The notes beneath the pieces are model-generated. The model made no database searches. It had not been told where the DNA came from and saw nothing but the letters and a program-made list of their open reading frames with translations. A stretch of 64,000 bases of DNA from the NCBI RefSeq assembly GCF_009696675.1, contig NZ_VULN01000004.1:146206-210205 (forward strand), written 5' to 3'. The first letter of the stretch is position 1. The number at the start of each line of letters is the position of its first letter. The DNA comes from Acidaminococcus fermentans. Its GTDB lineage: Bacteria > Bacillota > Negativicutes > Acidaminococcales > Acidaminococcaceae. Of the stretch, positions 30,860 through 40,929 are shown in pieces. The translations under genes and the position numbers were made by a program.

Positions 30860-32146
30860 TCATTTTTCCTTTTTCTTTCGCAGGAAGATGCACCCCTCCT
30901 TTTCTCCATAGCCCCGGACCACGTCTTCCGCAAAAGCCCGGCAGGTGGGGGCTCCGCAGGCCCCGCAGTCCAGCTGGGGGAACTCTTTTTCCAGTTTCTT
31001 CAGCTGGCCCATCTTCTCCAGGGCCTCGCCGAAATCCCTGGCCAGGGGCGGATGGGGCCGGGGTTCCAGGGGCTTGATGTACTTCCAGGAAGCCGGGAAA
31101 TCCTCGATGATCCGGCAGCGGGCCATGGCGGTCTCCCGGTCCGCATTTTCCCGGTTCCGCCGGCGGTCCACCCGCACCCGGAGATTCTTGGCGGCCACGT
31201 ACTTGTTCACCGCCACACAGGGCCCTCCGATGCAGCCCCCTGCACAGCTGTAACAGCACACGTACCGCACATCGCTGAGTTTGGCCATGCTTACCTGTTC
31301 CAGCAGTTCGTCCACCTCTTCCGGCCCCTGGGCCGCCAGGGCATTGGTCAGGCCGGTGGATTCCAGTTCCCCCCGCCAGCTTCCCCAGCTGAGGCTGTAG
31401 GAAGAGCCCAGGGTGGCTTCCGGCACCTCATACCGGGTTTCCTGCACATGCTTGATGGCCTGGGTCAGAGGCCCATAGATGGAAGAAATGGTGAAGGATC
31501 CGGTGACCGCCGTGTGGGCCACGTCCACGGACTGGTGGATGTTGGTGCCCTTGGCGGGGCAGGGAGAAATGAACCAGATCCCCACTTCCTCCGGGGCCAG
31601 TTGCAGCCGCCGGGTGGTTTCCCGCCGGGTATAGATGGCCGCCGCTTCCGCCGGTGCCAGTACCGGGAGCACCTGCTTCACCAGTTCCGGATACTTGGTC
31701 TGGATCAGCCGGAGCACCGCCGGGCAGGCGGAGGAGATCAGGGGGAAGGGGCCCTTGTAATGGGCGATGTACCGCTCCATTTCGTCGCTGATATAGTCCC
31801 CGGCCAAAGCCACGTCGAACACCGTGTCGAACCCCAGTTCCCGGAGCCCCTCCCAGATCACGGAGGCGGCGATGTTCCCGTCGAACTGGGCGTAAAAGGA
31901 AGGGGTGGCCAGAGCAATGTTCACTTTGTACTTCTTCAGTTCCGTCAGCGGGTCCGCCCATCCTTCCATGGCCCGGGTGGGACAGCAGCGGATGCACTCC
32001 CCGCAGTCGATGCACCGGTCCGAAAGGATCACCGCTTTTCCCTGCCGGACCCGGATGGCCTGGACCAGACATTCCTTCACACAGATCAGGCACCCGGTGC
32101 ATTTTTCCCGGTTGACTCGGACCGAATTGAGATAGGCTTCACTCAC
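30860..32146 (-). CDS. [FeFe]-hydrogenase-like iron-sulfur protein (putative redox sensor)
   Basis: A 428-residue protein. Two ferredoxin-type [4Fe-4S] motifs open it (Cys16-19-22-26 and Cys45-48-51-55). An [FeFe]-hydrogenase-type H-cluster domain follows, with loops SSACPAVL (L1), SPCPAKG (L2) and SCAGGCIGGPC (L3). A C-terminal Cys cluster comes last (DCGACGAPTCRAF). The four H-cluster cysteines are kept, but the proton-relay Cys of L1 (TSCCP in catalytic enzymes) is Ala, as in putative sensory group C/D proteins. It ends an operon with an RsbW-like ATPase and a DRTGG protein, so signalling rather than bulk H2 turnover is likely. Confidence 0.85.
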   Translation of the reverse strand: MSEAYLNSVRVNREKCTGCLICVKECLVQAIRVRQGKAVILSDRCIDCGECIRCCPTRAMEGWADPLTELKKYKVNIALATPSFYAQFDGNIAASVIWEGLRELGFDTVFDVALAGDYISDEMERYIAHYKGPFPLISSACPAVLRLIQTKYPELVKQVLPVLAPAEAAAIYTRRETTRRLQLAPEEVGIWFISPCPAKGTNIHQSVDVAHTAVTGSFTISSIYGPLTQAIKHVQETRYEVPEATLGSSYSLSWGSWRGELESTGLTNALAAQGPEEVDELLEQVSMAKLSDVRYVCCYSCAGGCIGGPCVAVNKYVAAKNLRVRVDRRRNRENADRETAMARCRIIEDFPASWKYIKPLEPRPHPPLARDFGEALEKMGQLKKLEKEFPQLDCGACGAPTCRAFAEDVVRGYGEKEGCIFLRKKKEK

Positions 32147-32176
32147 CGGTTTTCACCTGCTTTTCCTTCCCCTTAC

Positions 32177-32593
32177 TCAGTGGGCCAGCCGGAACTCCAG
32201 GGTCACCCGGGTCCCTTTCCCCACCTGGGTATCGATTTTCATGGCATCGGAAACTTTCTTCATGTTGGGCAGCCCCATGCCGGCCCCGAACCCCATGGCC
32301 CGGATCTTGGCGGACGCAGTGGACCAGCCTTCCCGCATGGCTTTTTCCACATCCGGGATCCCGGGGCCATGGTCCTCGATGGTGATGGTGACCTTTTCCG
32401 GATCCAGATCGGCCCGGATCTCTCCCCCGCCCCCATGGATCAGACAGTTCATTTCCCCTTCATAGGTTCCGATGGCGATCCGCCGGATCAGTTCCGGAGC
32501 CAGTCCCAGCTGCTTGAGCATTCCTTTCAGGGATGTGGAAGCCGCCCCGGCCCGTTCAAAGTCATTGGGGATCACCGTGTATTTTTCCTCCAT
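32177..32593 (-). CDS. Anti-sigma-factor-type ATPase (HATPase_c)
   Basis: A 138-residue stand-alone GHKL ATPase domain: N-box EGEMNCLIHGG, G1 box DHGPGIPD and G2 box GFGAGMGLPNM. No histidine-phosphorylation domain is present, so it resembles RsbW/SpoIIAB-type kinases acting on an antagonist protein. It lies 30 bases upstream of the hydrogenase-like gene and five bases after the DRTGG gene. The partner substrate is not identifiable here. Confidence 0.85.
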   Translation of the reverse strand: MEEKYTVIPNDFERAGAASTSLKGMLKQLGLAPELIRRIAIGTYEGEMNCLIHGGGGEIRADLDPEKVTITIEDHGPGIPDVEKAMREGWSTASAKIRAMGFGAGMGLPNMKKVSDAMKIDTQVGKGTRVTLEFRLAH

Positions 32594-32598
32594 GACGG

Positions 32599-32961
32599 CT
32601 ATTTCCGGTCCTTGCCGGAGCAGCCCCGGAGCCCCAGCTCATACAGCCGGCCGCAGGCCTCGAACATAGTGCACCGGGTGTAGAGCACCGGGATCCCCTT
32701 GCTCCGGGCCGCCAGCAGCACATCCTGTTCCGGATGCTTGTCCCGGACAAAGATCAGAGCCGCTGCATCGCTCACGTCCGCCGTCCGGACCACCTGGATG
32801 TTCAGGAGCCCGGTGAGCAGTACAAAATCTTCCTTGGCATAGGCCAGCACATCGCTCATCATGTCGCTGCCGCAGGCCTGGTTCACCGTCCGGTCCATCC
32901 CTTCCTGTCCGGAAACCACCTGGGCTTCCAGGACTTCCGCCACTTTCTTCAACGTTACCAT
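32599..32961 (-). CDS. DRTGG-domain protein
   Basis: A 120-residue protein matching the small DRTGG domain, which is often found with CBS or phosphotransacetylase domains and beside hydrogenase genes in clostridia-like bacteria. No catalytic motif is evident, and the role is probably ligand binding. It follows the TPR part of the regulator by 22 bases. Confidence 0.8.
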   Translation of the reverse strand: MVTLKKVAEVLEAQVVSGQEGMDRTVNQACGSDMMSDVLAYAKEDFVLLTGLLNIQVVRTADVSDAAALIFVRDKHPEQDVLLAARSKGIPVLYTRCTMFEACGRLYELGLRGCSGKDRK

Positions 32962-32983: not shown

Positions 32984-34099
32984 TCAAAACAACGCTTCCA
33001 TCTGCTTCCGTTCCCAGGTGTCCCGGTAGGGATCCAGCACCTGGAGGGCCCGGGTGGCATAGGACCCCAGGCTCCCTTCGTAATGGCGGGCGATCCCGCT
33101 GTCCGGATGGTCCTTCTTCAAAAGGGCGATGGCCATGTATACATAGCCTGCCTCCCGGGGATTGTTCATGTTCCCCAGTTTGTGGAGAGCATCATCCAGG
33201 AACCGGACCGCCTCCTTTTCCTTTCCTTCCCGCATGGACAAAAGGGCCAGGTAGGATTCCACTATGGGATGACGCCAGTAGAACACATACCGGGGGAACA
33301 GTTCATAGGCCTGGAGAAAATACTTTTTGGCCCGGTCGAACTGCCCCATATTGTAACAGGTGACCCCTGCATTGCAGGAAAAGACCACCCAGGAACTGTA
33401 GGCTTCCTGATCCCTGGCATAGTCCAGGGCCTTGTCGTAGCAGTCCAGGGCCTCCTGGAACTTTCCCTCTCCCCGACGGATCTCCCCCAGGTAGTTGTAG
33501 GCTCCGGCAATGTTCAGGGCATAGCGCCGCTGGACATTCTGGGTCACCATGAAGGTGGAGATGGATTCCTTCAGCAGCCGTTCTGCTTCCGGGAAATTCC
33601 CCTGCATGATCATGTTGAGGCCCTTGAGCCGGAGCAGGATCCCCATTTCCTTGTGGTAGTTGCATTCGTCCGCCAGGTTCAGGGCCACTTCCAGATAGTT
33701 CTTCATTTCTTCCGTGTTGCCGATCTGGATATCGTAGTAGATCATCTGCTTATAGCCCATGAGCATGTAGTCCCGGTTGTGGACTTCTGCCGCCTGTTCG
33801 ATCAGGCTCAGAATGTTCCGGACCCCTTTTTCGTATTCTCCCACCCGGATGTAGTGCCGGCCCATCAGGTGCAGGTAGTTCATTTCCAGGTCCCGGACTT
33901 CCGGAGTCTCCCCGCAGGTCCGCTTGATGGTGTGCATCATCTCGTCCACTTCCGCCAGGAATTTGCCCAGATTGGACTCGATGTACCGGCTCTTGTCATC
34001 GTCGGGCATAATATCCGCACTGCTGAGCACAGGGAACAGTTCATTGCTGAAGTTCAGATAATACATAAGGATCTTCAGTTTGTACCGGCCCATGTTCAC
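32984..34099 (-). CDS. C-terminal TPR part of a frameshifted BTAD/STAND regulator
   Basis: A 371-residue open frame consisting of tetratricopeptide-like helical repeats (for example NYLHLMGRHYIRVGEYEKG and GAYNYLGEIRRGEGKFQEAL). It continues the upstream 661-residue regulator in the -1-shifted frame. Removing one C from the C7 tract (plus-strand G7 at 34156-34162) joins the two into one protein of about 1013 residues, with HSPQDIRLYHHLEYHYQEAG crossing the join. A GTG at 34099 with GGAG five bases upstream could allow independent translation. It is therefore either half of a broken or phase-variable gene, or a coupled second subunit. Confidence 0.7.
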   Translation of the reverse strand: MNMGRYKLKILMYYLNFSNELFPVLSSADIMPDDDKSRYIESNLGKFLAEVDEMMHTIKRTCGETPEVRDLEMNYLHLMGRHYIRVGEYEKGVRNILSLIEQAAEVHNRDYMLMGYKQMIYYDIQIGNTEEMKNYLEVALNLADECNYHKEMGILLRLKGLNMIMQGNFPEAERLLKESISTFMVTQNVQRRYALNIAGAYNYLGEIRRGEGKFQEALDCYDKALDYARDQEAYSSWVVFSCNAGVTCYNMGQFDRAKKYFLQAYELFPRYVFYWRHPIVESYLALLSMREGKEKEAVRFLDDALHKLGNMNNPREAGYVYMAIALLKKDHPDSGIARHYEGSLGSYATRALQVLDPYRDTWERKQMEALF

Positions 34100-36026
34100 C
34101 AGTTCTCCGGCCTCCTGGTAATGGTATTCCAGATGGTGGTACAGCCGGATGTCCTGGGGGGGAATGGGTAAGCCGCTTTTCCCAGAGTCCGGCGATGTAG
34201 CTGTGGAGGATCTTCTGTTTTTCCAGGGAGATCTGCTGGTGGATGTATTCTTTCAGCTTCTGCTGGACAATTTCATAGATCACTTCCGGCTGCTGGGGCA
34301 CCGGCCGGATGAAGTTGTTGTTCCGGAGCACCTCCAGGTTTTCCAGGGCCTGGAGGCTGTTCATATGCATGTATTCCGAGATCATGGCCAGAGGCGCCCC
34401 GTCGTAGAACAGGGAAATGAAGTCCAGGATCTTCCGCTGGTCATCGGTAAGAGCGAAACAGTTGGATTTGAAAATATTCCGCATGTTTTCCGTCAGGTTT
34501 TCCAGACTGCCGGTGGTCTTGAGGGCCTTCAGGCATTCCCGGAGCAGGAACAGGTTCCCTTCCGATTCTTCCAGCAGCCGGTCCACCAGATGGTCATCCA
34601 CCGGCACCGGCAGTTCCATGTCCAGGGCAAAGAGCCGGACGGTCTCCCTGTCCAGGGGGGCCAGTTCCAACAGCCGGAGCTTGTGGTACATGGAGACGGA
34701 GGTCTCGAATTTCTGATAGTTCTTGTCCTGGGAAGGCTGGGCGGTCAGCAGGAACATGAACCGGGAGGATTTCTTGTGGAGGATCAGACTGCTCAACAAA
34801 GACAGGCTGAGAGGATCCATCCACTGGATGTCCTCAAAGATAAACAGCAGCTGCCGGCTTTCCCCCACATTTTCCATCACCGTGTAGAGGGTGTGGAAAA
34901 TGGCGTCGAATTTCAGCAGATCCTTGATTTCCGCCAGTCCCGCTTCCCGGTCCCCGCTCATGTCCATCTGGGGGAACAGTTCATACAGCCGGGAGGGATC
35001 CATGTTGGGCACCGGGATCTTTTCCCGGCGGATCAGGTTCCCCAGCCCCTCCACGATTCCGGTCCAGGGCCGGAGCAGGATGTTCTGTTCCGGTTTGAAG
35101 CAGTTGGTCTGGATCACCGTCACTTCCGGAGGCAGTTCCTCCACCAGGGCATCCTTCAGGATGGTCTTGCCGCAGCCGGCTTCTCCCCGGATCAGCAGGG
35201 TATCGCTGTTCCTGCCCTGGAGGAACTCTTCCAGCATCCTGTTCACCAGCTGGAGTTCCCGTTCCCGTCCGGTCAGGCTGCCTTTGGGCCGGGGTTTCAG
35301 GATCCCCTGCTCTTTTTTCTCCTGCTTTTCCTCATGGAGGGTCCGTTTCATCAGCTCTTCGATTTCCGGAGGCACATTGCTCTGGAGCTCTTCCCGGAAC
35401 AGCTTCTTCATTTCCTCATACAGTTCCGTAGCCTGCTTCATGTTTCCCTGCTCACAATACGTCCGGAGCAGCAGGGTATAGATGGATTCATCGTAGGGAT
35501 CATGGGCAATGAGCATCCGGCCGTACCGGGTCACCTTGGCCTGATTCCGGACAGCCACCGCTTCCTTCAGTTTCTGGAGCAGGGCATCCATGTACAGTCC
35601 TTCCAGACGGTCCCGTTCCGTCAGATACCAGTTTTCGTACTCTGCCGCATCCTTGATGAAGAACCCCTGGAGGAAGGCACCCTGATACAGTTCCAAGTTC
35701 CGGCCCGGATCCACCTCGAATTCCTTCACATCCACCTGGACCCGGATTTCCGGATTCACCTTGATAATGGCTTTCCGGGGCGAAATGAACACATCCGGTC
35801 CCAGGATCTTCTTGGTTTCGTAAATGGCATTCCGGAGATTTTTCCGGGCAATGGCATCGGGCTTGTCCGCCCACAGCACACCGCTCAGTTCATCCCGCAT
35901 CACCGTGCCCTTCACCAGCAGGTAGTATACCAGTGCATTGACTTTATTATAGGGAAAGAAGATTTCCTTCCCGTCTTTCTGGATAACAGGAGCGCCTAAA
36001 AACCGCGCTTGGATCAGACTCGTCAT
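34041..36026 (-). CDS. BTAD/SARP-type regulator with STAND ATPase, N-terminal part (frameshifted)
   Basis: A 661-residue open frame. The N-terminus has a winged helix (residues about 1-75, RDELSGVLWADKPDAIARKN) and a bacterial transcriptional activator domain (about 85-220). A STAND/AAA ATPase follows, with P-loop GEAGCGKT and Walker B LLFIFEDIQWMD. The final 40 residues (SPPGHPAVPPSGIPLPGGRR and on) are proline-rich and out of character, showing a frame error at the C7 tract. ATG 36026, not 36041, has the AGGTG site. The AfsR/MalT-like architecture implies ATP-dependent control by an unknown ligand. It heads the hydrogenase-sensor operon. Confidence 0.75.
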   Translation of the reverse strand: MTSLIQARFLGAPVIQKDGKEIFFPYNKVNALVYYLLVKGTVMRDELSGVLWADKPDAIARKNLRNAIYETKKILGPDVFISPRKAIIKVNPEIRVQVDVKEFEVDPGRNLELYQGAFLQGFFIKDAAEYENWYLTERDRLEGLYMDALLQKLKEAVAVRNQAKVTRYGRMLIAHDPYDESIYTLLLRTYCEQGNMKQATELYEEMKKLFREELQSNVPPEIEELMKRTLHEEKQEKKEQGILKPRPKGSLTGRERELQLVNRMLEEFLQGRNSDTLLIRGEAGCGKTILKDALVEELPPEVTVIQTNCFKPEQNILLRPWTGIVEGLGNLIRREKIPVPNMDPSRLYELFPQMDMSGDREAGLAEIKDLLKFDAIFHTLYTVMENVGESRQLLFIFEDIQWMDPLSLSLLSSLILHKKSSRFMFLLTAQPSQDKNYQKFETSVSMYHKLRLLELAPLDRETVRLFALDMELPVPVDDHLVDRLLEESEGNLFLLRECLKALKTTGSLENLTENMRNIFKSNCFALTDDQRKILDFISLFYDGAPLAMISEYMHMNSLQALENLEVLRNNNFIRPVPQQPEVIYEIVQQKLKEYIHQQISLEKQKILHSYIAGLWEKRLTHSPPGHPAVPPSGIPLPGGRRTGEHGPVQTEDPYVLSELQQ

Positions 36027-36109
36027 GTTTCCACACCTCATCAGAGAAATTTTATGTAAAAATTACCAACTCCCGTAAGGCCCCTCAAATTGTCATAGTA
36101 ATCAGTACT

Positions 36110-36140: not shown

Positions 36141-36175
36141 AGGGGGTGCTGCACCCAATGTGCAGCACCCTCTTC
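36141..36175 (-). terminator. Terminator downstream of hutI
   Basis: Stem GGGTGCTGCAC with GTGCAGCACCC, followed on the minus strand by CCTTCTTTTC. It separates hutI from the promoter of the next operon. Confidence 0.75.
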
Positions 36176-36200: not shown

Positions 36201-37442
36201 TTACCGGACCACCACTTTTCCTTTTTTGATGACGGTTTCCACAATGTTGACCCCTGTATGGTAGGGAAGGAATTTGTAGGACGGATACTGGAGGATCACC
36301 AGGTCCGCCTGTTTCCCCGGCTCCAGGGAACCGATCCGGTCCGCCCGGTCCAGGGCCGCGGCCCCGTTCAGGGTCAGGGCGGTGATGGCTTCTTCCGCAC
36401 TCATCTTCATGTAGATCACCGCCAGGCCGATCATGAGGGGCACCGAGAAGGTGAAGCCGCTTCCCGGGTTGAAATCCGTGGCCAGGGCTACGGCGCAGCC
36501 GGCGTCGATCATTTCCCGGGCCCGGGCAAAGGGTTCTTTCAGACAGAAGGCGGTGGTGGGCAGCAGGGTGGACACCACCCCGTTGTCCGCCATGGCCCGG
36601 ATCCCTGCATCGGAAGCATGGAGCAGATGGTCCGCACTGGTGGCGTGGAGTTCCCCGGCCAGTTCCGCCCCGCCCAGGCTGACGATCTCATCTGCATGGA
36701 TTTTCAGCTTGAAGCCCATCTTCCGGGCTTCCGTCAGCAGGTGCCGGCTCTGTTCAATGGAGAACACCCCTTTTTCGCAGAACACGTCGCAGAATTCCGC
36801 CAGGTGTTTTTCCGCCACTTCCGGCATTACATCCTTCAGGAGGAATTCGATGAAGTCATCCCCCCGGTCCTTGTATTCCGGCGGCACCGCATGGGCCCCC
36901 AGGAAGGTGGACACCAGCTCGATGGGCTGCTTTTCGTTCAGGTCCCGGACCACTTCCATCTGTTTGATTTCCGTATCATGATCCTGGCCGTAGCCGCTTT
37001 TGGCTTCCACGGTGGTGACCCCCATGGCCAGCATCTTCTTCAAAAAGTCCATGCTGTGGTCCACCAGCTCTTCCCGGCTGGCTTCCCGGGTGGCCTTCAT
37101 GGTGTTCAGGATGCCCCCGCCCCGTTCCATGATTTCCATATAGCTCATGCCGCCCATCCGCCAGAGGAATTCATCGGGCCGGTAGCCCCCGAACACCAGG
37201 TGGGTGTGGGAATCCACGAACCCGGGGAGCACCGCCTTGCCGGTGGCGTCGATCTGTTTGTCCGCCGGCACCAGTTTCTCCCAGTCCGGCTGGTTCCCGA
37301 TGCTGCGGATCTTCCCGTTTTCAATCAGGATGGACTGGTTCTCGTAGATCTTCAGCTGTTTCATTTCCCGGCCATGACGGGCGGTATTCCCTTCCGGGGT
37401 CACAATCTGGGCCGCATGTTTGATCAGCAGTCTGTCAATCAT
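36201..37442 (-). CDS. hutI: Imidazolonepropionase
   Basis: A 413-residue amidohydrolase-superfamily enzyme that opens 4-imidazolone-5-propionate to N-formimino-L-glutamate. The metal site is seen in VDSHTHLVFGG, and the IHADEIVSLGGAELA and DFNPGSGF stretches are characteristic of HutI. ATG 37442 is chosen because AAGGAGG stands seven bases upstream; an upstream extension to 37484 is not needed. It lies behind hutU with a hairpin between them, so its expression may be lower or separately controlled. Histidine-derived glutamate would feed the hydroxyglutarate pathway. Confidence 0.95.
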   Translation of the reverse strand: MIDRLLIKHAAQIVTPEGNTARHGREMKQLKIYENQSILIENGKIRSIGNQPDWEKLVPADKQIDATGKAVLPGFVDSHTHLVFGGYRPDEFLWRMGGMSYMEIMERGGGILNTMKATREASREELVDHSMDFLKKMLAMGVTTVEAKSGYGQDHDTEIKQMEVVRDLNEKQPIELVSTFLGAHAVPPEYKDRGDDFIEFLLKDVMPEVAEKHLAEFCDVFCEKGVFSIEQSRHLLTEARKMGFKLKIHADEIVSLGGAELAGELHATSADHLLHASDAGIRAMADNGVVSTLLPTTAFCLKEPFARAREMIDAGCAVALATDFNPGSGFTFSVPLMIGLAVIYMKMSAEEAITALTLNGAAALDRADRIGSLEPGKQADLVILQYPSYKFLPYHTGVNIVETVIKKGKVVVR

Positions 37443-37467
37443 TGCCTTTCCTCCTTCAGTTCTGCCA

Positions 37468-37507
37468 CAAAAGGGTTGCTGCACGGTATCCGTGCAGCAG
37501 CCCTTTG
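37468..37507 (-). terminator. Hairpin between hutU and hutI (attenuator or terminator)
   Basis: AAGGGCTGCTGCACGG-ATA-CCGTGCAGCAACCCTT followed by TTTG on the minus strand. It sits inside what looks like a two-gene operon, so partial termination is likely. Confidence 0.65.
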
Positions 37508-37528: not shown

Positions 37529-39580
37529 TCAGTCTTTGATCACATGGGCTTTGGGATAAACCTTGGCCACTGCGTCTTTGATCTGTTTTTCGTCGGTCAG
37601 GTACGGCAGGGTGATCTGCCCGATGCCGTGACGGGTCTTGTTGAATTCCACAGCCGTTTCCATGGCGTGTTCGTTCCGTGCCCAGGACCGGCGGGCCACA
37701 CCGCTGATTACATCCCAGCTCAGGGAGCTGCGGATGATTTCATCCACCCGGTGGCTGCCATCCAGCACCAGACCGAAGCCGCCGTTGATGGCTTTGCCGA
37801 TGCCCACGCCGCCGCCGTTGTGGAGGGCGCACAGGCTCATGCCTCTGGCTGCGTTCCCGGCGAAGCACTGGACTGCCATGTCAGCCATTACATTGGAGCC
37901 GTCCTTGATGTTGGAGGTTTCCCGGAAGGGAGAGTCCGTACCGGATACGTCGTGATGGTCACGGCCCATCATGACAGGCCCGATTTCCCCGTTCCGGACC
38001 AGTTCGTTGAATTTCAGGGCGATGTTCACACGGCCTACTTCATCCTGGTACAGGATACGGGCCTGGGTGCCCACCACCAGTTTGTTCTTTTCTGCATCCC
38101 GGATCCAGTTGTAGTTGTCCCGATCCTGGTACCGGCGGTTCACGTCGATGCAGCTCATGGCCGCCATATCGGTCTTGTGCAGGTCTTCCGGTTTGCCGGA
38201 CAGGCATACCCAGCGGAAGGGTCCGTAGCCGTAGTCGAACAGCTGGGGTCCCATGATGTCTTCCACGTAGGAGGGCCAGATGAACCCGTCTTTGTCGTCC
38301 ACACCGTTCTTGGAGATTTCCTTTACCCCGGAATCAAACACGGCTTTCATGAAGGAGTTGCCGTAGTCGAAGAAGTACACGCCCCGGGCGGTGATCTTCT
38401 TCAGGGCTTCGAAGTGGGCATGGAGGGTCTTGTCCACCAGTTCCCGGAACTTGGCCGGATCTTCTGCCAGCATCTTGGTCCGTTCCTCAAAGGTCAGGCC
38501 CTGAGGGCAGTAGCCGCCGTTGTAGGCGTTGTGGCAGGAAGTCTGGTCGGAAACCAGGTCCACATGGATGTTGTGGTCCACAATGTATTCCAGCAGGTCA
38601 ACGATGTTGCCGTGGTATGCGAAGGATTTGCCCTTCTTTTCCGCCATGGATTTCTGGGCCATGGCAATGACTTCCGGCAGGGAATCGGAAACTCCGGAGA
38701 TCCAGCCCTGATCCAGGCGGGTCTTGATCCGGGAAGCATCCACTTCCGCCACAATGGCGGTGCAGTTGGCGATTTCCGCCGCTTTGCCCTGGGCACCGCT
38801 CATGCCGCCCAGGCCGGAGGTGACGAACAGCTTGCCGCCCAAGTCCCCGTCTTCCGGGATCCCCAGTTTCATGCGGCCGGCGTTCAGGATGGTGTTGAAG
38901 GTACCATGGACGATGCCCTGGGGCCCGATGTACATCCAGCCGCCGGCGGTCATCTGCCCATAGTTGGCCACGCCCATTTCTTCGGCGATTTCCCAGTCAT
39001 GCTGGTTGTCGTATTCCCCGATCATCAGACCGTTGGTGATGATTACCCGGGGAGCTTCCGGTTTGGAATGGAACAGGCCCAGAGGATGGCCGGATTCCAT
39101 GACCAGGGTCTGGTCCGGAGTGATTTCTTCCAGATACCGTTTGATCAGCAGGTACTGCATCCAGTCATGGCACACGCTGCCGGTTTCCCCGTAGGTGACC
39201 AGTTCGTAAGGATACAGAGCCACTTCAAAGTCCAGGTTGTTGTCGATCATCACCTGGAAGGCCTTGCCTTCGGTGCATTTGCCTTTGTATTCATCAATGG
39301 GTTTCCCGTAGATCCGGCCTTCCGGACGGAAACGGTAGCCGTAGATCCGGCCCCGGGTGGTCAGTTCTTCCAGGAATTCCGGGATCAGTTCTTCATGATA
39401 TTCTTCCGGGATATAACGCAGGGCATTTTTCAGAGCAATTTCAGTCTGTGCCGGAGTCAGACGGAAGCCACGGTCCGGAGCCCGACGGATGCCTTCCTGG
39501 AAAGGTTTGGGTTTGGGCAGCCCGTTGGGGAATTCCAGTTTAATGGTCATGGCTTTTCCGATTTCTTCATTCTTCATCAT
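37529..39580 (-). CDS. hutU: Urocanate hydratase
   Basis: A 683-residue urocanase, the long form found in several Firmicutes, compared with about 555 in Pseudomonas. NAD+-binding glycine-rich TSGLGGMSGAQGKAAEIANC and the C-terminal LHNGGGVGIGKAINGGFG are clear. It converts urocanate to imidazolonepropionate. ATG 39580 with AAAGGAG nine bases upstream is chosen; the frame stays open upstream to 39688, but that part reads like noncoding leader. A near-perfect 22-bp palindrome lies at 39730-39751. hutH and a formiminotransferase are not in this window. Confidence 0.95.
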   Translation of the reverse strand: MMKNEEIGKAMTIKLEFPNGLPKPKPFQEGIRRAPDRGFRLTPAQTEIALKNALRYIPEEYHEELIPEFLEELTTRGRIYGYRFRPEGRIYGKPIDEYKGKCTEGKAFQVMIDNNLDFEVALYPYELVTYGETGSVCHDWMQYLLIKRYLEEITPDQTLVMESGHPLGLFHSKPEAPRVIITNGLMIGEYDNQHDWEIAEEMGVANYGQMTAGGWMYIGPQGIVHGTFNTILNAGRMKLGIPEDGDLGGKLFVTSGLGGMSGAQGKAAEIANCTAIVAEVDASRIKTRLDQGWISGVSDSLPEVIAMAQKSMAEKKGKSFAYHGNIVDLLEYIVDHNIHVDLVSDQTSCHNAYNGGYCPQGLTFEERTKMLAEDPAKFRELVDKTLHAHFEALKKITARGVYFFDYGNSFMKAVFDSGVKEISKNGVDDKDGFIWPSYVEDIMGPQLFDYGYGPFRWVCLSGKPEDLHKTDMAAMSCIDVNRRYQDRDNYNWIRDAEKNKLVVGTQARILYQDEVGRVNIALKFNELVRNGEIGPVMMGRDHHDVSGTDSPFRETSNIKDGSNVMADMAVQCFAGNAARGMSLCALHNGGGVGIGKAINGGFGLVLDGSHRVDEIIRSSLSWDVISGVARRSWARNEHAMETAVEFNKTRHGIGQITLPYLTDEKQIKDAVAKVYPKAHVIKD

Positions 39581-39729
39581 GTAATACCACTCCTTTGCGT
39601 CATGCTTCGTGCAGGAATCTGATTTCTCGACTTCATGGCTCCATTGTAAAGAAGATTCATCTGAAAAACGTCGAAAGGAAGCGTCCATAACAAATAAATT
39701 TCAGTTTTTTCACCAGAAGTTTTTAGACG

Positions 39730-39756: not shown

Positions 39757-39789
39757 TCAAAAAAGGGGGTGTGAAAAATTCACACCCCC
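39757..39789 (-). terminator. Terminator of the MetE-like gene
   Basis: GGGGGTGTGAA-TTT-TTCACACCCCC followed by TTTTTT on the minus strand, just past the gene ending at 39814. Confidence 0.85.
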
Positions 39790-39813: not shown

Positions 39814-40929
39814 TTATTCCCCCCACACTTCCTGGGCGATGGAGCGGACCAGGGCCAGTTTGGCCCACTGCTGTTCTTCGGTCAGCTTGTTGCCGATTTC
39901 GCAGGAAGCGAAACCGCACTGGGGGCTGAGGCAGAGGTTTTCCAGGGGCACATATTGGACGGCTTCGCGGATCCGGGCGATCACCTGGGCCCGGTCTTCC
40001 AGTTCCGGACGCTTGGTGGTGATGAGTCCCAGCACCACCTTTTTCCCGGGGGCCACTTCCTTCAGGGGTTCGAAGTTCCCGGACCGTTCATCGTCGAATT
40101 CCAGGTAGAAGGCATCCACTTTTTCCTTCCCGAACAGCAGGGGAGCAATGGGACCGTAGCCGCCCCGGGCTGCCCAGGTGGAATGGTAGTTTCCCCGGCA
40201 CACATGGGTGTTGATCACCAGGTCATCAGGCCGGCCTTCCAGGGCCAGGTTGTTCAGCCGCAGGTACTCCTCCGCCACCTGTTTCAGAGAAACCGCTCCC
40301 TTCTGCCGTTTGTTCCAGTATTCCGTATCACAGAACATGCCCCAGGTGCAGTCATCCAGCTGGATGTTCCGGCAGCCGGCTCCATACAGATCCCGGAACA
40401 CCTGCCGGTAGGCGGCGGCAATGTCCTGGAGCAGTTCTTCCCGGTCCGGGTATACCGCGTCAGTGATTTTCCCGTTGTCTCCCCGGTACAGCTCCGCCAG
40501 CAGCTGAGCCGGAGCAGGCAGGGTCTGCCGGGCCAGGGTGTTTTCGTCCTCGAACCCTTTCACATATCTGAAATGGTCCACAAAGGGATGGTCCTTCCCG
40601 CTGATTTTTCCGGTGACGATGGCAGTGCCCCGGGCGGTCTCTTCTCCGTGGAACAGGTAGCCCTGTTCCAGCTCGATATGGGTGATGCCCTGGAAGCCCC
40701 AGAAAAAGTCCAGGTGCCAGTAGCTCCGCCGGAATTCCCCGTCAGTAATGGCATGGAGCCCGGCGGCCTTCTGCTTTTCAATGAGTTTGGCGATTTCCTC
40801 GTCCTCCACCTGCTTCAGGTCCAGGGCGGCGATCTCCCCCCGGGCAAACCGGGCCCGGGCCTCTTTCAGCCGGTCCGGCCGCAGGAAACTCCCAACAATA
40901 TCAAAACGGAATGGTGCACGCAAAGTCAT
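39814..40929 (-). CDS. MetE C-terminal-domain-like protein (YxjG/YxjH family)
   Basis: A 371-residue protein resembling the catalytic half of cobalamin-independent methionine synthase, as in YxjG/YxjH. Candidate zinc ligands are in NTHVCRGNYH and CLSPQCGFASCE. FRFDIVGSFLRPDRLKEAR is the typical start. Such proteins may use alternative methyl donors or methyl-corrinoid or methionine-recycling substrates. The ATG follows GAGGGG by nine bases. It lies between hut genes and hydE but has its own terminator, so it is probably monocistronic. No SAM or T-box riboswitch could be seen in the 148 bases upstream. Confidence 0.82.
   Translation of the reverse strand: MTLRAPFRFDIVGSFLRPDRLKEARARFARGEIAALDLKQVEDEEIAKLIEKQKAAGLHAITDGEFRRSYWHLDFFWGFQGITHIELEQGYLFHGEETARGTAIVTGKISGKDHPFVDHFRYVKGFEDENTLARQTLPAPAQLLAELYRGDNGKITDAVYPDREELLQDIAAAYRQVFRDLYGAGCRNIQLDDCTWGMFCDTEYWNKRQKGAVSLKQVAEEYLRLNNLALEGRPDDLVINTHVCRGNYHSTWAARGGYGPIAPLLFGKEKVDAFYLEFDDERSGNFEPLKEVAPGKKVVLGLITTKRPELEDRAQVIARIREAVQYVPLENLCLSPQCGFASCEIGNKLTEEQQWAKLALVRSIAQEVWGE

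Follow-up and report, generated by a model that had tools for sequence, protein, structure and literature searches.

The analysed window, a stretch of 64,000 nucleotides from the gut bacterium Acidaminococcus, carries on its minus strand hutU, encoding a long-form urocanase (37529–39688; TIGR01228 over its cut-off), followed by hutI for imidazolonepropionase (36201–37484; TIGR01224 over its cut-off) and by a regulator gene that is split over two reading frames. The upstream frame of the regulator (34041–36026; 661 codons plus stop) encodes the DNA-binding, BTAD and AAA_16 (STAND-type NTPase) parts, and the downstream frame (32984–34153; 389 codons plus stop) the TPR part of the same protein. 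The gap from hutI to the regulator holds an intrinsic-terminator-like hairpin of 11 pairs (36144–36170, minus strand), a weak signal given that one was found against a mean of 0.4 in shuffled sequence; a promoter-like site for the regulator was not found on the minus strand. Downstream, and likewise on the minus strand, are a DRTGG-domain gene (32602–32961) starting 22 bp after the regulator stop, an RsbW/SpoIIAB-like ATPase gene (32180–32593) and a gene for a FeFe-hydrogenase-like Fe-S protein (30863–32146), all of which would be expected to feel polar effects of a premature stop in the regulator. These three genes, called a sensor operon in the initial annotation, trail the regulator in eight of nine Acidaminococcus genomes but at none of the loci outside the genus, within the flanks examined; its broader neighbours are hut genes. 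The tight row formed by the three genes (30863–32961) could represent a redox-signalling unit carried on the transcript of the hut regulator.

The regulator frame is broken at a run of seven C (34156–34162, minus strand; context ...CGG CTT ACC CAT TCC CCC CCA GGA..., with the seven C at 34162–34156), which amounts to a net +1 against those relatives whose frame is unbroken here. Counted from the first ATG the upstream frame has 666 codons (34041–36041), and from the MTSLIQ start, five codons later, 661. Its in-frame match to P0002, an intact protein from our protein collection, ends at P0002 residue 623 (BLASTP), the last 38 codons being out of frame, and the TPR frame, which begins directly after the tract, is identical to P0002 residues 625–1013 at 389 of 389 positions. 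The division of one frame into a regulator part and a TPR part at this tract, as initially annotated, was thus confirmed, and the joined protein of 1013 residues that had been predicted exists in P0002, which is 1013 aa long and continuous across the join. P0002 is about 99% identical to the window protein (616 of 621 residues match in the N-terminal part and all 389 in the C-terminal part), an identity level suggesting that it comes from the same species as the window strain, and the existence of so similar an intact copy indicates that the lesion is recent. Among the homologues of the joined protein, the reading frame runs unchanged from one part to the other at the junction in all 46 loci tested (eight other genus genomes and 38 named loci), although one of these eight genomes, G007, is broken elsewhere in the same gene; a layout as two separate proteins, which would have spoken against a broken gene, was seen at none of the 46. 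The window copy consequently has the properties of a disrupted allele, namely intact orthologues, a lesion private to the strain (as taken from the assembly) and low divergence after the lesion.

The N-terminal unit (35325–36026) matches Pfam BTAD (5e-13), and an AlphaFold2 model of the N-terminal 234 residues, built on a 28-sequence alignment, gives a winged helix followed by a helical BTAD domain with a mean pLDDT of 93.8. Foldseek returned six hits with E <=0.001, all of them AfsR or EmbR chains (E 1e-10 to 1e-7), the best solved structures being AfsR (8k60, 8hvr) and EmbR (2ff4). An AAA_16 or NACHT-like NTPase domain (1e-15; 34758–35276, residues 256–428 of the frame counted from 36041) occupies the centre, and TPRs the C-terminal part. 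SARPs are divided into small (~300 residues), medium (~600) and large (~1000) classes, the large ones combining a DNA-binding/BTAD part with an NTPase and TPRs (PMC10972967). The N-terminal winged helix with BTAD and the central NTPase are both present here, and the TPRs belong to a single polypeptide of ~1000 aa in the intact relatives and in P0002, while in the window they lie in the other frame. Judging from its domains and predicted fold, the regulator is a large SARP (AfsR-like) protein. AfsR of Streptomyces coelicolor, PolY and RslR3 are likewise ~1000 residues long with an N-terminal winged helix plus BTAD, an NTPase in the middle and C-terminal TPRs, but they belong to actinomycete antibiotic clusters, whereas the present regulator is found in Firmicutes beside hut genes and its window copy is frameshifted. 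MalT shares the NTPase and a C-terminal TPR region, and the TPR_MalT match of the regulator falls just under the cut-off (42.2 vs 45 bits); however, MalT binds DNA via a C-terminal LuxR-type domain, while the DNA-binding part is N-terminal here. The known hut regulators are HutP in Bacillus and HutC in proteobacteria, and neither a HutP nor a GntR/HutC domain is among the Pfam hits of the regulator, which would share with them a role in histidine utilisation that is predicted from its gene neighbourhood.

That neighbourhood, overlooked in the initial annotation, includes histidine-breakdown genes in most loci. One or more of hutH, hutU, hutI and ftcD lie near the regulator, within the examined flank, in 29 of the 38 named loci (L018–L055), including two (L053 and L055) whose sole hut match is a 28–29% hutH-like one; the nine without a core hut gene are L020, L028, L032, L038, L039, L042, L047, L048 and L052, and in seven of these nine the locus is <9 kb long. 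At the four loci with only a generic AAA match (L056–L059) hut genes were absent (0/4). Some loci also encode, close by, an FchA-like cyclohydrolase, a histidine racemase-like protein and a transporter of the Na+/H+-antiporter family. Among 61 relatives the regulator (E <=1e-20) occurs in 12, all of which have hutU, a gene present in 17 of the 61 overall; outside the genus all three regulator genomes have hutU (p 0.0025), with G037 and G040, which show weak partial TPR matches of 1e-6 to 1e-4 and no hutU, excluded. In a sample of 299 genomes from the phylum, scored with two candidates per genome, the regulator (E up to 1e-40) was found in five, again all with hutU, against 96 of 299 with hutU in total, and in the four besides the window's genome it lies 0.2–8.4 kb from hutU and forms a single open frame no shorter than 1022 codons. 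Since most genomes with hutU do not carry it, the regulator would be one lineage-specific solution. The conserved linkage across Firmicutes leads us to predict that it regulates histidine utilisation by controlling the hut genes; literature searches among open-licence papers listed none that describes a BTAD/SARP-type hut regulator in its title or the opening of its abstract. Genome G002 has two hut clusters (C1 329442–344159 and 931082–945280), each with its own SARP/STAND paralogue, and its second regulator copy is only 25% identical in the TPR part.

A second feature of the locus is a rearrangement of the hut cluster itself. hutH, hutU and hutI are contiguous in seven genus genomes, and in six of these the regulator follows directly (in G001 it is on another contig). 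Only in the window's genome, G000, and in G007 do hutH and ftcD lie elsewhere: on contig C12 in the former, and at about 283–294 kb as opposed to 2,045 kb for hutU in the latter, a hutH–hutU distance of 1.75 Mb in record coordinates. In the window the edge of the rearrangement falls at 39760–39789, where hutH adjoins hutU in the seven other genomes. Alignment to G003 (A. massiliensis) places the hutH/hutU break of both genomes at the same point, give or take tens of bases, and the two genomes are collinear across either new junction, the window's genome having one extra gene upstream of hutU; the common break point and collinear junctions are most simply explained by one shared event. With the two parts of the cluster 294 kb and 282 kb away from the ends of the G007 record, the rearrangement may have been an inversion about the origin, assuming base 1 to be the origin. 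The window's genome is also nearer to G007 (about 90–92% in the longest alignments) than to G003 (88%). The regulator is broken in both genomes with a split cluster and in none of the seven without (Fisher p 0.028), a value that is post hoc and based on tiny counts, the two broken genomes moreover looking like sisters that share the rearrangement. Intact alleles, P0002 and P0004, are close to both broken genomes. The hut enzymes themselves show no sign of decay, as hutH, hutU, hutI and ftcD of both genomes are free of internal stops and match over nearly their full length. Upstream of hutU, by the edge of the rearrangement, is a methionine-synthase-like gene (PRK06520 family; 39814–40929), with no counterpart in the G007 alignment there.

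The lesion in G007, which had also been overlooked, affects the same gene at another place. G007 is taken to be the finished genome of the A. fermentans type strain VR4, of 2,329,769 bp with a stated error rate of <1 in 100,000 (PMC3035267). Its gene carries a different net one-base frameshift near codon 270, not in a long homopolymer, and what remains is an N-terminal product of 276 aa. P0004, whose identity to the two G007 pieces is 98.2% and 99.7%, is continuous at the lesion site, and the partial record P0012, named A. fermentans, is in frame there, so both intact and broken alleles occur in the G007 species as well. Of the window's 210,205-base contig, 195,934 bases were aligned to G007, and over this length two in-gene frameshifts were detected, one per genome, both in the regulator gene. 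Indels were called by the phase of codon-position mismatches around them and then inspected, the scans being restricted to forward alignments >=1000 columns long (208,351 columns including overlaps, with a union of 195,934 bases). A strict scan yielded four sites and missed the G007 lesion, which was recovered by a relaxed scan giving seven candidate net non-3 indel sites with coding signal on both sides (eight rows, one site appearing twice); on inspection, five of the seven proved to be gene junctions or intergenic and the other two are those in the regulator gene. Detection of split ORFs by ORF-to-ORF BLASTP was dropped, as it produced mostly wrong-frame and antisense noise.

Metagenomic proteins in the collection suggest further broken alleles, although these are protein records only and some may stem from contig ends or faulty assembly. 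P0003 follows P0004 at 99.8% identity as far as residue 817, after which it is out of frame, P0104 is 100% identical over 547–870 and out of frame beyond, P0005 is 99.9% identical and ends at 715, P0033 agrees at 100% with the 1032-aa P0020 through residue 363 and then goes out of frame, and P0032, on a 56 kb contig, starts with V at residue 299 of P0010. P0028 was not counted as a lesion, both of its ends resembling what we take to be adapter read-through, and neither were the named partial record P0012 or P0101 and P0102, which are on contigs of <2.4 kb. Truncated clusters made up four of 12 regulator clusters (P0003, P0005, P0025 and P0032) at identities of at least 76% and at least 62% of full length, compared with none in a metH-like control, in which 16 of 16 clusters at >=80% identity, among the best 120 matches listed, were 802–813 aa long (p 0.024); this comparison serves as supporting evidence only, because the identity bands differ and were chosen post hoc, the shorter P0012 and P0028 were dropped, and P0025 is on a 4.0 kb contig. 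One metagenomic protein, P0105, on a 3.5 kb contig, has a phage-integrase domain joined to the C-terminal TPR end of the regulator.

Taken together, we consider it probable that a recent slippage in a C-run has split a large SARP gene beside the hut genes, that the SARP is a hut regulator as predicted, and that it has been lost independently in different strains after the splitting of the cluster. The mutation would then be truly present in the isolate. A C-run in the window strain would have slipped to seven C, breaking the frame, so that ribosomes would read 623 correct codons and 38 wrong ones before a stop; the TPR half would be unmade apart from trace leakage, with the DNA-binding and NTPase parts kept. 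In a protein built this way the TPR half is likely to be the ligand sensor. Once the hut cluster was split, selection on a sensor-gated regulator may have been weakened or even reversed, and individual strains could then have lost it independently, others keeping it intact. The break at another place in the gene of the sister species suggests that the predicted histidine switch is being lost, or possibly rewired, repeatedly. Of the four options listed in the initial annotation, recent inactivation is thus the best supported, backed by the 46 loci in one frame and the near-identical intact copy.

Another possibility is that this is the ordinary neutral decay of a dispensable gene, unlinked to the hut rearrangement, which we regard as possible though on balance unlikely. 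In its favour, 75 pseudogenes are listed beside 2,182 genes in VR4 (PMC3035267), so that the base rate for a second broken copy would be a few per cent, and in three of the 38 named loci (L048, L050 and L051), where a rearrangement is not known, the N-terminal match is also split over two frames. The association with the split cluster (two of two vs none of seven) speaks against it, as does the low dN/dS of the gene. Over three segments of the regulator dN/dS is 0.12, 0.12 and 0.06 between the window's genome and G007, and 0.04, 0.07 and 0.05 against A. massiliensis (G003), similar to the DRTGG and RsbW-like neighbours (0.05–0.16) and above hutU (0.01–0.03). Such values imply that the regulator was under purifying selection and functional until recently. 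In its N-terminal half the regulator resembles A. massiliensis (94–95%) more than G007 (87–92%), while the contig overall is closer to G007, and recombination inside the regulator gene is possible on the basis of these identities.

It could also be that the extra base is an isolated assembly or sequencing error and that in the isolate itself the tract is in frame and the regulator intact, which appears rather doubtful. Homopolymers are a classic site of sequencing errors, the near-identical P0002 is intact, and the assembly is a draft of 34 contigs. Runs of seven or more C or G are avoided in the window rather than enriched, only the C7 tract being present where about 50 would be expected from a first-order Markov estimate. 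In the whole genome there are 34 such runs, and C7 alone switches a well-scoring open frame to another on the same strand, under a rule that asks for >=0.3 bits per codon and for both flanking stretches of 180 nt to be free of stops; by our own reading and under the same rule, 12 of the other 33 lie within one continuous frame, while 21 show neither pattern. The lack of a frame switch at these 33 argues against generally poor homopolymer calling, though not against one isolated error, the main rival of a real recent mutation. Against it stand the fact that the window's genome has no other in-gene frameshift in the 196 kb compared, and the breakage of the same gene at another site in a finished genome.

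A less likely reading, which we regard as improbable, is that the frameshifts are gains: by removing the sensor they would leave active SARPs of medium (661 aa) and small (276 aa) form, and a change from conditional to constitutive histidine use would have been selected repeatedly in glutamate-rich gut niches after the split. It is prompted by the broken frames of the window and of G007 falling near the size and domain classes of the medium and small SARPs CdaR and ActII-ORF4 (~600 and ~300 residues), a likeness that proves nothing; unlike those proteins, the 661-aa and 276-aa forms arise from recent frameshifts in a large-SARP gene. All six lesion positions (about 272, 363, 624, 715, 817 and 870) are past residue 233, i.e. 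after the BTAD domain. We have set this bias aside as evidence for gain, as its chance is roughly 1 in 5 by a hand estimate and early lesions are missed by the searches.

Full-length protein might still be made in part from the C7 allele by leaky or programmed +1 frameshifting at CCC-C, which we think very unlikely to account for the locus. CC[C/U]-[C/U] is a +1-prone motif, with up to 1% shifting in E. coli at the second codon (PMC4519876), and the C7 run holds this motif in the right direction. However, the same source gives a rate of <0.003% for typical non-programmed +1 events and the second codon as the most shift-prone place (PMC4519876), and relatives either lack the run or have it interrupted, and need no shift. 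The junction codons vary within the genus (S-P-Q, S-S-Q, S-T-Q or F-T-Q), and the tract length, whose comparison among isolates had been proposed at the outset, varies as well, the longest C run at the site being C6 in A. massiliensis and one to four C in the other seven genus genomes. Neither a conserved slippery site nor a two-protein layout was seen at the junction of the 46 loci, nor a conserved contingency tract in the genus genomes, and this lack of conservation makes programmed slippage or a phase switch, two further options of the initial annotation, unlikely; +1 frameshifting is not conserved as a programme, and as leakage it would be compatible with a recent inactivation. A phase-variable contingency locus, in which tract length would toggle the regulator on and off, is very unlikely despite the intact and broken alleles at 99% identity and the C6 of A. 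massiliensis, since seven bases is short for a phase-variable tract, the tract is interrupted in seven of the eight other genus genomes, and the sister lesion sits elsewhere in the gene, not in a long homopolymer.

In O. symbiosa, a Firmicute of the gut, glutamate is reported by a 2026 preprint to inhibit hutHUI transcription, and it also reduces the histidine consumed by four other species, A. intestini among them, an effect that steers histidine towards the disease-associated metabolite imidazole propionate; its main text holds no words beginning with 'regulator' (PMC13320830). The SARP family described here is a concrete candidate for a regulator behind such an effect in the lineages carrying it, and natural strains, some with a broken and some with an intact allele, could serve directly to test this. 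Two features of the hut enzymes accompany the locus: in the phylum sample the hutU linked to the regulator is of the long form in five of five cases (open frames of 674–741 codons), not of the common ~550 residues, and paralogues of the histidine-ammonia-lyase family below the hutH cut-off occur in eight of nine genus genomes, with six matches each in G001 and G003.
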